A stretch of 64,000 nt of DNA from Desulfamplus sp. Its GTDB lineage: Bacteria > Desulfobacterota > Desulfobacteria > Desulfobacterales > Desulfobacteraceae. The translations under genes and the position numbers were made by a program. The stretch is from assembly GCA_015232455.1 (NCBI GenBank), contig JADFZQ010000007.1, forward strand, positions 62,001 to 126,000, read 5' to 3'. The stretch's first letter is position 1; every line of letters starts with the position of its first letter. The notes below the pieces were generated by a model. The model saw only the letters and a program-made list of their open reading frames with translations, did not search any database and was not told where the DNA came from. Shown piece after piece: positions 59,011-64,000 of this stretch.

Positions 59011-60531
59011 ATGTCAGAAATCACACTTATTGGACTTAATCACAAAACAGCAGCAGTTGAACTTCGTGAAGCACTTGCTTTCACCGCAGAAGAGTCGGCT
59101 AATGCCCTTAAATCTCTTATAGGTAACAGCAATAATAAGATAAAAGAGGCGATGATCTTCTCAACCTGTAACCGTATGGAAATACTTTTTATATCATCAG
59201 ATAAAAGCTGTAGGGCATCTCAATCAATCTGCAGCACTGGCTCAAGCAATAACACTGGATCAAGCGATAGCTCTGAATCAACCGATAACACTGGCTCAAG
59301 TGATAACACCCAAGTTGTGATTAATTTTCTATCTGAATATAAAAAATTGCCCGTAATCCGTTTTCAAGACTCTCTTTACATTTACAATGGCAATGATGCT
59401 GTCAGACACATTTTTAGAGTTGCATCAAGCCTTGACTCCATGATTATTGGAGAACCTCAAATCTTAGGTCAAGTTAAGGCAGCATATCGTTTAGCAGCTT
59501 TAAATAAATCTTCTGGTGTTGTTATAAATCGGCTTATGCACAAAGCATTTAGCATTGCTAAAAAGGTCAGAAGAGAGACAGGCATCGGAGACAATGCTGT
59601 CTCAATTAGCTATGCAGCAATTGAGCTTGCCAATAAAATCTTCAATGATCTAAGCGAACGGTGTGTAATGCTTCTTGGAGCTGGTGAAATGGCAGAGCTT
59701 GCAGTTGAACATCTTATTTCGCATGGAGTTAAAAAGATATTTGTCGCAAATAGAACTTTTGAGAATGGCGTACTGCTTGCAAAAAAGTTCAATGGAATTA
59801 AGGCTGTTTACGGAAGTAATAGAAGCTGTGCTATCCAAGAATTTGAACATAGCAGCGATATGGTTCAAGATAGTGATAATAATTCCAGAAATAATAAAGA
59901 CAATTTTAGTAAAAATAGAGAAAAAGATATTGTAAATGCAGAGGCAGTAAGATTTGAAGAGAGGGAGCGGCTACTTCAAGAGGTTGATATTATTATAAGT
60001 TCAACTGGTGCAACTGAATATGTTTTAACCGCAGCTCAAGTTAAAAAAAGCATGATTTTTAGGAAAAACAGACCTCTTTTTTTGATTGATATTGCAGTTC
60101 CAAGAGATATTGACCCTAAAATCAATAAAATCGACAATGCCTATCTTTATGATATTGACGATCTACAAAATATTGTTGATGATAACATGGAAGAGAGAAA
60201 AAAAGAGGCTCTCAAAGGCGAACGGCTTGTTGATGAAGCTGTTATAAAATTTGAAAAATGGCTTGAAAATCTTGATGTAGTTCCAACTATTGTTGCAATA
60301 AAAGAGAAGATTGAAAAGATAATTGAATCAGAGACAGAAAAGACTCTAAATTCTCTGAACCTAAGAGAAGAGGAGCAAGATGCCATAAAAAGAATGGCAC
60401 AAGCAATTACAAATAAAATAATGCACGATCCAATACAATTTCTAAAAAATAGTGGAAACCATAGGGACGATGTATTTTACTTGAATGCGGCAAGAGAGAT
60501 TTTTAATATTAATAATATGAATGGAGATTAA
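59011..60531 (+). CDS. hemA: Glutamyl-tRNA reductase HemA, with repeat inserts
   Basis: First committed step of C5 tetrapyrrole synthesis: glutamyl-tRNA to glutamate-1-semialdehyde. 506 residues (E. coli 418): TLIGLNHKTAAVELRE, catalytic Cys in STCNRME, RVASSLDSMIIGEPQILGQVKAAY, GAGEMAELAVEHLISHGVKKIFVANRTFE (NADPH), DIAVPRDIDP, YDIDDLQNIV and the dimerisation helices. Two inserts explain the length: four 6-residue units (TGSSNN type) at about 76-99, and an Asn/Asp/Ser/Lys stretch near 275-310. It follows the HemX-like gene. Confidence 0.96.
   Translation: MSEITLIGLNHKTAAVELREALAFTAEESANALKSLIGNSNNKIKEAMIFSTCNRMEILFISSDKSCRASQSICSTGSSNNTGSSDSSESTDNTGSSDNTQVVINFLSEYKKLPVIRFQDSLYIYNGNDAVRHIFRVASSLDSMIIGEPQILGQVKAAYRLAALNKSSGVVINRLMHKAFSIAKKVRRETGIGDNAVSISYAAIELANKIFNDLSERCVMLLGAGEMAELAVEHLISHGVKKIFVANRTFENGVLLAKKFNGIKAVYGSNRSCAIQEFEHSSDMVQDSDNNSRNNKDNFSKNREKDIVNAEAVRFEERERLLQEVDIIISSTGATEYVLTAAQVKKSMIFRKNRPLFLIDIAVPRDIDPKINKIDNAYLYDIDDLQNIVDDNMEERKKEALKGERLVDEAVIKFEKWLENLDVVPTIVAIKEKIEKIIESETEKTLNSLNLREEEQDAIKRMAQAITNKIMHDPIQFLKNSGNHRDDVFYLNAAREIFNINNMNGD
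59236..59307. repeat. Four 18-bp tandem repeats inside hemA
   Basis: Units start at 59236, 59254, 59272 and 59290. The type unit is ACTGGCTCAAGCAATAAC. They encode TGSSNN, TGSSDS, SESTDN and TGSSDN. The array is in frame and lies in a surface loop between the catalytic Cys region and the IGEPQI motif. Confidence 0.9.
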
Positions 60532-60686: not shown

Positions 60687-61049
60687 ATGGAAGATAAAGA
60701 GTTAGAATTTTTCAAAAACCTTTTGAATGAGAGACTTAAAGACCTTATTTCTCATGCTGATGAAACCGTAAATGAGATGACAATACCTAAAGATAACTTT
60801 GCAGATCCAACAGATAGGGCATCACATGAGGCTGAACGCAACTTTGAACTTAGGATAAGAGACAGAGAGCATAAGCTGATTAAAAAGGTAAAAGAGGCGT
60901 TAATTAGAATTGAAAACAATACTTATGGAATTTGTGAAACCTGTGGAGATGATATTTCCATAGCAAGGCTCAAAGCAAGACCAGTAACAACTCAATGTAT
61001 TGAGTGCAAAACCCGTGAAGAGGTTATGGAAAAAGCACTTGGAATCTAA
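60687..61049 (+). CDS. dksA: DksA/TraR-family RNA polymerase-binding zinc finger protein
   Basis: 120 residues: a coiled coil (about 5-80) with the D-x-x-D-x-A tip in DNFADPTDRASHEAERN, then a C4 zinc finger ICETCGDDISIARLKARPVTTQCIECK. DksA enters the secondary channel of RNA polymerase and acts with ppGpp to control rRNA and amino acid promoters. Slightly shorter than E. coli DksA (151). Acidic residues at the tip (DPTD) support DksA activity. The start follows TAAAGGATAAAC. Confidence 0.9.
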   Translation: MEDKELEFFKNLLNERLKDLISHADETVNEMTIPKDNFADPTDRASHEAERNFELRIRDREHKLIKKVKEALIRIENNTYGICETCGDDISIARLKARPVTTQCIECKTREEVMEKALGI

Positions 61050-61106: not shown

Positions 61107-62846
61107 GTGATCGATCTACACATACACTCAACAGCATCTGATGGCTCTTTTACTCCTATTGAGATTGTTAATATGGCAATCAATAGAGGATTGAGTGCGA
61201 TTTCAATTACAGACCATGATACTATTGATGGAGTCAAAGAGGCTATTGAAGCTGGCATTCCTCATAATATCGAGTTGATAACTGGGGTTGAACTTAGTGT
61301 TCAGCCTCCGCTTAACTATGAAGATAGCGGGAGTATCCATATTCTTGGCTATGGGTTTAGCATTTATGACAAAGATATGAATGCTACCCTCATAAAACTT
61401 AGAGATGCTCGTGCAAACAGAAATCCTTTGATACTTGAAAGGCTAAGTCAATTAGGGTTTCCTCTTACAATGAGCGAGGTTATAGATATATGTGGAGAAG
61501 GTCAGATTGGTCGCCCCCACATTGCAAAAGCTATGGTTGAAAAAGGTTATGTTCCATCTTTTGACTATGCTTTTGATAACTATCTTGGAAAGGGCAAACC
61601 TGCATATATAGATAAATTTAGGCTCTCTTGCAAAGATGCAATTAAACTAATTCTTGATGCTGGGGGTATTCCCGTGCTTGCACACCCTGGTCTTATCAAA
61701 ATTCAAACTCTTTCTCCGTTTAGATATAATTCAGATAGCAACTGCTCAAATATCAATTATTCAACTAACTATCCAAATGAATATTATCCATTGGAATATT
61801 TTATCTCTCAGCTTATTGGTATGGGACTTATGGGTATTGAAGTGTTTCATACAGATCACTCAAAAGAAGAGAGTAACTATTTTGAGAAGTTTGCAAAAAG
61901 AAAAGCTCTTCTGGTTACTGGTGGTTCTGATTTTCATGGAACGCTTAAACAAGGTGTTGAGATTGGTATTGGTAAGGCTGAGGCTGGTATTAATATTGGT
62001 AAGGTTGAGGAGAACTATAGAGGCAACCTTTCAATTAGCTTTGATTATTATAAGAACCTATATATTGCGGTTGAGAAAACAAGAAGGGCTAATAGCAACA
62101 TAGAAAAACTTCAGGATAATTTTTGTTACTCATTTAAAGAGCAATCATTGCTTAAGACAGCTCTAAGGCATAGCTCTTATGTTAATGAGATGCAAAGTCC
62201 TAATGTTGTTGATAATCAAAAATTATTGGATAATCAAAGATTATCAGACAATCAACGGCTTGAATTTTTAGGAGATGCTGTTCTTGGGCTTTCTATTGCT
62301 CAACTTTTGATGCAAAAATTTCCTGACATGAAAGAGGGGGACTTATCAAAATTACGCTCAAATCTTGTAAGTGAATCGTCTCTTGCATCAATGGCACGAT
62401 ATATGGACGTTGGAAGATTTATACTGCTTGGAAAAGGAGAACGTCTCTCGCGTGGTTCAGAAAAAAACTCAATTCTTGCGGACACATTTGAGGCTATTAT
62501 TGCTGCAATCTTTCTTGAGATTGGCTTTGAGGCAACTTGTGAGCTTATATCTCTATATTTTGACAATCAGATAAGCCAGATAACATCGAATAGCGATACC
62601 TGTGATTATAAAAGTATGCTTCAGGAGATGGTTCAAGAGATGGGCAATTTTGCTCCGTGTTATAAAATTTTAAAAGAGTTGGGTCCAGACCATGATAAAA
62701 TGTTTGAGGTGGTTCTAAATGTATGTGATATAGAGGCAAGAGGAGAAGGTAAAAACAAAAAATCAGCAGAACAAAATGCAGCTGCAAATGCGATTGCTAT
62801 AATTAATAAAAATAAGCTATTAAAGGGAGATTCTTCATGCTCGTAA
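61107..62846 (+). CDS. PHP-domain phosphoesterase fused to ribonuclease III
   Basis: One 579-residue frame, GTG start. Residues 1-325 are a PHP phosphoesterase of the YciV/RNase AM type: DLHIHSTASDGS, SITDHDTIDG, AHPG, FHTDHS and GSDFHG supply the metal-binding His/Asp. Residues about 331-579 are RNase III: TALRHSSYVNE, the NQRLEFLGDAVL signature (about 381-392), FEAIIAAIFLE with the catalytic Glu, and a dsRNA-binding domain (about 495-575: YKSMLQEMVQE ... SAEQNAAANAI). No in-frame ATG, GTG or TTG lies near the RNase III start. RNase AM trims 5' ends of 5S rRNA and small RNAs in E. coli; RNase III cuts rRNA precursors. The fusion would couple two RNA-maturation activities. Confidence 0.95.
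   Translation: MIDLHIHSTASDGSFTPIEIVNMAINRGLSAISITDHDTIDGVKEAIEAGIPHNIELITGVELSVQPPLNYEDSGSIHILGYGFSIYDKDMNATLIKLRDARANRNPLILERLSQLGFPLTMSEVIDICGEGQIGRPHIAKAMVEKGYVPSFDYAFDNYLGKGKPAYIDKFRLSCKDAIKLILDAGGIPVLAHPGLIKIQTLSPFRYNSDSNCSNINYSTNYPNEYYPLEYFISQLIGMGLMGIEVFHTDHSKEESNYFEKFAKRKALLVTGGSDFHGTLKQGVEIGIGKAEAGINIGKVEENYRGNLSISFDYYKNLYIAVEKTRRANSNIEKLQDNFCYSFKEQSLLKTALRHSSYVNEMQSPNVVDNQKLLDNQRLSDNQRLEFLGDAVLGLSIAQLLMQKFPDMKEGDLSKLRSNLVSESSLASMARYMDVGRFILLGKGERLSRGSEKNSILADTFEAIIAAIFLEIGFEATCELISLYFDNQISQITSNSDTCDYKSMLQEMVQEMGNFAPCYKILKELGPDHDKMFEVVLNVCDIEARGEGKNKKSAEQNAAANAIAIINKNKLLKGDSSCS
62211..62264. repeat. Three 18-bp tandem repeats in the RNase III signature
   Basis: Units start at 62211, 62229 and 62247 and encode DNQKLL, DNQRLS and DNQRLE. 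The third belongs to the conserved NQRLEFLGD motif, so the first two look like duplications of the motif's own codons, placed just before it. Confidence 0.85.
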
Positions 62847-62875: not shown

Positions 62876-64000
62876 GTGCAAAGGTCATATACCACATTAA
62901 AACCCCTTATTATCCCAATATTTATCCCTCATTCAGGTTGTCCTCACCAATGTGCTTTTTGCAATCAATCCATTATTACTGATACATCGCACAACAAAGA
63001 TAAAAACAAACTATATCTACTTCCATCTCAAGAAGAAATAAGGCATGAAGTAGATCGTTTTCTTCTCTATAAAGGAGTAAGAAAAGAGGTTGAGCTTGCA
63101 TTTTTTGGCGGCAATTTTCTTGGTCTTAAACAAGACGAGATAATTTTCTTGCTCTCATCTGCTAAAGAGCTTGTAAAGGATGGGAAAATTGACTCTATTC
63201 GATTCTCCACACGACCAGACACAATCACAACAGAGCGGCTTGAACTCATATCACAATACCCTGTCTCAACAATTGAGATTGGTGTTCAATCTATGGATAA
63301 TAGAGTGTTAAAACTTGCAAAGCGGGGACATACAGCAGAGGATACTATAAAAGCCGCCTCCCTGTTAAAAGATATTAAGCAATATGGCGACTTTAGAGAA
63401 TCATCTTTGATAGCTACAGATATTGCTCCAATATCTACTACTGAGACAAAAATATGTAAATCTATTACAAAGACAAAACCATTTAAAATTGGTATGCAGA
63501 TGATAGTTGGGCTTCCTGAAGATAACGATAAAACAGCTCTTGAGACAGCAGAAAAGATAGCTCAACTTAAACCTGATTTTGTTCGTATCTACCCTCTGAT
63601 TGTTTTAGAAGGCAGTCTAATTGCTAAGTGGTATCGTGAAGGAAAGTATGAGCCAATCTCATTGGAGTCATCTGTTAAACTTGTAAAAGAGATATTTCTT
63701 ATATTTCAGAGACACGGCATTTCCGTAATTAGAATGGGACTTCAGGCATCAGACTTGCTTCAAGATAAGCTCTCAATGGTTGCAGGTCCTTGGCATCCAG
63801 CCTTTGGGCATTTAGTCTATTCTGAGATTTTTTTTGATAAAGCTGTTGACTTGATTGCGAAGCTCGGGTTCATACCCCGCCCCTTGCAGCGGAAAGTTTT
63901 CATTAATAAAGAATTGTCCTATGAAGATTTAGGTATAAATCAAGAGAATAAACAAGAGAGCCAAATTATCACTTTGGCTGTTCACCCAGCATCAATATCA
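62876..64000 (+). CDS. Radical SAM protein, Elp3/COG1243-like (partial)
   Basis: An open frame begins with GTG 62876 directly after an in-frame TAA (62873-62875) and runs off the right edge (375 codons seen). It starts TTLKPLIIPIFIPHSGCPHQCAFCNQS, whose Cys triad binds the radical SAM [4Fe-4S] cluster. FFGGNFLG, RFSTRPDTI, IEIGVQSMDNRVLKLAKRGH, MQMIVGLPED and VRIYPLIVLEGS follow, as in Elp3-related and coproporphyrinogen-oxidase-like radical SAM enzymes. The ribosome site is weak. A Ser/Thr/Lys-rich insert lies near residues 170-200. The reaction is unknown. Confidence 0.85.
   Translation, partial: MQRSYTTLKPLIIPIFIPHSGCPHQCAFCNQSIITDTSHNKDKNKLYLLPSQEEIRHEVDRFLLYKGVRKEVELAFFGGNFLGLKQDEIIFLLSSAKELVKDGKIDSIRFSTRPDTITTERLELISQYPVSTIEIGVQSMDNRVLKLAKRGHTAEDTIKAASLLKDIKQYGDFRESSLIATDIAPISTTETKICKSITKTKPFKIGMQMIVGLPEDNDKTALETAEKIAQLKPDFVRIYPLIVLEGSLIAKWYREGKYEPISLESSVKLVKEIFLIFQRHGISVIRMGLQASDLLQDKLSMVAGPWHPAFGHLVYSEIFFDKAVDLIAKLGFIPRPLQRKVFINKELSYEDLGINQENKQESQIITLAVHPASIS

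Follow-up and report, generated by a model that had tools for sequence, protein, structure and literature searches.

A PHP phosphoesterase domain fused to RNase III in Desulfamplus and related Desulfobacterales

The window analysed here is a 64,000-nucleotide stretch of Desulfamplus sp. DNA, in which a single open reading frame encodes a PHP phosphoesterase domain, an RNase III catalytic domain and a dsRNA-binding domain (dsRBD) in one chain. The gene, its parts and its two neighbours are the following:

60,687 to 61,049, plus strand: upstream neighbour, a DksA/TraR-like zinc-finger protein, named by sequence
61,107 to 62,846, plus strand: fused gene for PHP phosphoesterase, RNase III and dsRBD (579 residues, GTG start, single frame)
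61,107 to 62,036, plus strand: PHP domain of the RNase AM/Cv1693 type, about residues 1-310, recognised by profile matches, alignment, predicted structure and fold match
62,037 to 62,096, plus strand: junction, a predicted helix at residues 312-328 followed directly by the RNase III N-terminus
62,097 to 62,586, plus strand: RNase III catalytic domain, about residues 331-493, with E386, D390, D459 and E462
62,604 to 62,816, plus strand: dsRBD, about residues 500-570 (Pfam dsrm)
62,876 to 64,000, plus strand, continuing past the window end: downstream neighbour, a radical-SAM-like protein with a CxxxCxFC motif

The PHP half, which covers about residues 1-328 once its C-terminal helix is included, carries an insertion domain (about residues 92-175) and a low-complexity insertion (about residues 200-224). 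Pfam domains were located at residues 3-70 (PHP), 346-482 (Ribonucleas_3_3) and 501-564 (dsrm, 53.9 bits against a cut-off of 23), and TIGR02191, the model for bacterial RNase III, scored 221.6 bits, above its curated cut-off of 166.25. Judged by sequence, the RNase III half passes every test made, in score, in its four acidic residues and in its dsRBD. Both domains are folded in the AlphaFold model (mean pLDDT 86, pTM 0.77), and its confidently predicted junction helix is the equivalent of the tail (GDLxVPYxLYExL) at the C-terminus of unfused PHP proteins. In fold, the first half of the model came closest to V. cholerae RNase AM (9etk) and the second half to bacterial RNase III, and no solved chain with both PHP and RNase III domains was found among the 50 matches listed. 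A tandem DNQKLL-DNQRLS-DNQRLE repeat lies just N-terminal of the catalytic signature RLEFLGD (window about 62,214-62,266, residues about 370-386); locus L034 has one copy only.

Named matches were Desulfamplus MAGs (69-93% identity), classified as Desulfobacteraceae by NCBI. The radical-SAM-like neighbour was also found downstream in L034 and in L054, a locus of the family member G020. Further upstream in the window, a glutamyl-tRNA reductase-like open reading frame (59,011-60,531) bears a Ser/Asn/Thr-rich insertion (SSNNTGSSDSSESTDNTGSSDN) at residues about 75-100, which is absent from its L054 homologue; the PHP half of the fused gene likewise has its low-complexity insertion.

The window genome is 98% complete and encodes a single RNase III, the fused protein; a search for a second, stand-alone RNase III found none in this genome, so the cell's RNase III must be the fused chain, whole or processed. 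The same genome also encodes RNase J and two RNase E/G. The PHP half is thus not the only candidate trimming enzyme, and a role as the sole 5'-3' exonuclease of the cell was rejected because RNase J is present.

At the local base composition, a stop-free run of 579 codons has a probability of about 1e-18. Codons 247-347 contain no in-frame ATG, GTG or TTG, and the next possible start, a TTG at codon 348, already lies within the RNase III fold. A separate RNase III start is therefore impossible without losing part of the fold, and an internal restart in the window gene was rejected. Six of the eight members of the Desulfamplus clade lack an in-frame start codon in the junction. Of the 47 fused loci, 33 have some start codon, accompanied in 13 by a weak SD-like stretch; G157 (f50) is among several relatives that may therefore produce RNase III on its own as well.

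The fused php-rnc gene was recovered in 39 sampled loci of the window's family, a group of sulfate reducers, from independent assemblies that include five single-contig genomes (G023, G033, G090, G129 and G151), and every php-bearing family locus (39 of 39) is still fused. Within the 35-50-codon junction, pairwise dN/dS was 0.04-0.32 in those family pairs that allowed a calculation, close to the values of the domains, so the junction is under purifying selection. Taken together, these data exclude an assembly or sequencing error for the window lineage, and with it the frameshift or lost stop codon named in an earlier note on this DNA as what would overturn the fusion. The single frame and the junction devoid of a usable start codon, both described in that note, hold. 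One family member departs from the pattern: in G020, rnc (L054, 2,318-3,019) comes immediately after the DksA-like gene and no PHP sequence intervenes. This is an apparent secondary loss of the PHP half, which is therefore dispensable in G020.

Close relatives, for which the note had advised a check for two adjacent genes, are fused within the family, and elsewhere in the order php and rnc are separate neighbours. In each of the 71 unfused order loci included in the tree, php immediately precedes rnc on the same strand, the two genes overlapping, touching or spaced by up to about 300 bases. They share a frame in 18 of these loci, and in 11 of the 71 a single stop codon separates the in-frame open frames. 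The stretch from the last PHP motif to the first RNase III motif measures 62 residues in fused proteins (median), against medians of 32 for the PHP tail and about 28 for the RNase III head in unfused proteins, indicating an end-to-end joining in which nothing was lost and no linker was added. A few order members have an rnc that php does not adjoin (L067, L069, L070 and L116). Outside the order, php adjoined rnc in none of 18 rnc loci sampled from other parts of the phylum, and neither a fused frame nor an adjacent php-rnc pair was found among the matches listed for 51 genomes of a Blautia MAG's phylum. Long RNase III frames of G227, G260 and G293 (648-689 residues) were considered as PHP fusions and rejected. 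Frames of this length, 648-689 codons, end in RNase III elsewhere in the phylum at L137 (1,075-3,084), L138 (1,204-3,147) and L139 (1,112-3,178); their first 430-480 codons, devoid of Pfam domains, are possibly just long open frames of GC-rich DNA.

Trees were built from joined PHP and RNase III alignments with the junction left out, using FastTree on 118 loci and IQ-TREE in quick mode on 97. By Fitch counts, which do not distinguish gain from loss of fusion, the fused state changes seven times on both trees. Since php and rnc are adjacent yet separate across most of the order, and php is not found beside rnc in other classes, gain is the simpler reading. The window's family groups as a single clade (SH-aLRT 100). 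Fusion also occurs in f24/g79 and f25/g38, with two genomes each, and in f27/g49, f27/g90, f46/g77 and f50/g91. Of these lineages the first five lie among unfused members of the taxonomic family to which each belongs (support 93-97), and the placement of f50/g91 is weakly supported. Two or more genomes thus back the fusion in the window's family and in the f24 and f25 cases, while each of the single-genome fusions (G073, G156, G157 and G120) comes from one assembly and could be an error. We conclude from the Fitch counts and SH-aLRT support that the php-rnc pair has fused independently about seven times.

Both active sites are conserved. The metal ligands of E. coli RNase AM (H13, D20, H45, E72, H83, H198, D255 and H257; PMC9410882) align with H5, D12, H37, E62, H78, H193, D275 and H277 of the fused protein, and all eight are invariant in the 118 loci, fused and unfused. 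So are R102, R105, R136 and F156, the counterparts of the 5'-phosphate pocket (R107, R110 and R141) and the stacking F161 of RNase AM. The RNase III acids E386, D390, D459 and E462 are present in all 47 fused proteins, and, position 196 excepted, neither domain varies in its catalytic residues within this set, in agreement with the note's description of two complete domains. By counts, the D459 position is Asn (14) or Gly (2) in 16 of 71 unfused Desulfobacterales RNase III loci; in fused RNase III it is Asp throughout.

The exception at position 196 concerns the phosphate-bridging Arg201 of RNase AM, which is L196 in the window protein and Leu, Ile, Phe or Ser across the clade, in fused and unfused proteins alike; with this Arg lost, chemistry or substrate may differ from those of RNase AM. 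The PHP half scored 162.5 bits on the RNase RNM equivalog NF047791 (cut-off 375) and slightly higher, 178.1 bits, on NF041577, the 3',5'-nucleoside bisphosphate phosphatase (cut-off 400), and no characterised PHP equivalog gives it a score above cut-off. Among solved structures, Cv1693 is its closest match in sequence. Neither the family score nor the Arg201 position identifies it as RNase AM, so on sequence grounds we name the PHP half RNase AM-like and not RNase AM. The kinship to RNase AM proposed in the note thus stands through the 9etk fold, the ligands and the pocket, and identity with it does not; given the sub-cut-off scores and the Arg201 loss, 5'-end trimming by the PHP half is something we infer.

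Known systems share one half or the other with the fused protein. RNase AM (YciV, Rnm; E. coli and V. cholerae; 7ug9, 9etk) has the same PHP fold with insertion domain, three-metal ligands and phosphate pocket, but is a stand-alone protein of about 290 residues that keeps Arg201, whereas the fused protein has Leu or Ile there and falls far below the RNase RNM cut-off. Cv1693 of Chromobacterium violaceum (2yb1, 2yb4) belongs to the same PHP subfamily as the PHP half; it too stands alone and, unlike the PHP half, has Arg at the Arg201 position. Ordinary bacterial RNase III (1o0w, 1yyk, 7r97) shares the RNase III domain, the dsRBD, the four catalytic acids and the TIGR02191 score, but known examples have no N-terminal enzyme domain. 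The php-rnc pair of other Desulfobacterales comprises the same two proteins in the same order and adjacency, but as two separate chains. In the open-licence papers searched, no RNase III with an attached PHP domain was found to be described, in line with the note's remark that no described enzyme has this layout. Both domains are known; by this search, their union is new.

RNase III products carry 5'-phosphate ends. We consider it an even call that the fused protein is a housekeeping RNase III with an N-terminal RNase AM-type PHP 5'-end nuclease, which cuts and then trims the new 5'-phosphate end. This reading builds on a single chain with intact sites that is the sole RNase III of its genome, on the family-wide presence and recurrence of the fusion, and on selection at the junction. 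From these we infer what the enzyme acts on, in which order the steps occur and that the product is handed over. Against the reading stand the lost Arg201, the sub-cut-off scores of the PHP half, RNase J and the two RNase E/G as possible performers of parts of the work, and G020, which lacks the PHP half. The RNase III part would dimerise as usual and cut double-stranded RNA, pre-rRNA processing stems above all, to leave 5'-phosphate ends; the metal-dependent PHP site beside each RNase III subunit would then remove nucleotides from the new 5'-phosphate end, whereby rRNA 5' ends would be matured or short 5'-phosphorylated fragments cleared. The fusion would fix a 1:1 ratio of the two activities and let the product be passed on locally. 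Pre-rRNA of E. coli is processed by RNase III, and once endonucleases have cut, RNase AM takes the final nucleotides off the 5' ends of 5S, 16S and 23S rRNA (PMC9848016, PMC8406224). A wider version, in which a cut-and-trim enzyme arose independently about seven times in one class and rRNA 5' maturation is carried out largely by RNase III itself, is plausible, if somewhat short of probable.

The strongest rivals concern the evolution of the fusion and the chemistry of its PHP half. Stop codons lost now and then between end-to-end operon neighbours could have joined the two genes with no functional gain, the domains working independently; the 11 unfused loci one stop codon away from fusion, the additive length of the junction, G020 living without the PHP half and the possible internal start codons left in several fused relatives all fit such a history. 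We nevertheless consider a neutral fusion quite improbable, as about seven fusions occurred and one was kept family-wide, in 39 of 39 php-bearing loci, with a junction that is under purifying selection and that lacks a start codon in most Desulfamplus-clade members, although a fusion that does no harm and is difficult to undo would fit these points as well. An artefact of assembly or sequencing is scarcely credible as the source of the frame: the fusions outside the family that come from one assembly each would fit it, but it is contradicted by the independently assembled family loci, the five single-contig genomes and junction dN/dS values below 0.35.

As for chemistry, the PHP half might work on small molecules or nanoRNA, perhaps as a pAp or 3',5'-bisphosphate nucleotidase in the manner of Cv1693, an enzyme that acts on nucleotides, and would then recycle nucleotides and tiny oligonucleotides of RNA decay instead of acting on RNase III products as such. 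Its highest score, albeit sub-cut-off, is on the bisphosphate phosphatase model (178 against 162 bits), Cv1693 is its best solved sequence match, and the Arg201 of RNase AM is lost. However, Cv1693 itself keeps an Arg at that position, so the loss lends no support to a Cv1693 activity; the closest fold is RNase AM, and repeated fusion to RNase III in particular points to a shared substrate. We therefore regard a nucleotidase as rather unlikely.

Only recently was RNase AM recognised as the E. coli enzyme that completes the 5' ends of rRNA, and the step from RNase III cleavage to 5' trimming is still being worked out. The recurrent fusion of exactly RNase III and a PHP domain suggests, as natural evidence, that the two act in sequence, and the fused protein offers a testable single-protein system in which a cut would be followed by trimming. 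The recurrence also suggests that, in the many Desulfobacterales where php neighbours rnc, its product takes part in RNase III processing too, in bacteria that also have RNase J. The repeated joining of these neighbouring genes in relatives thus suggests that cutting and trimming work together.
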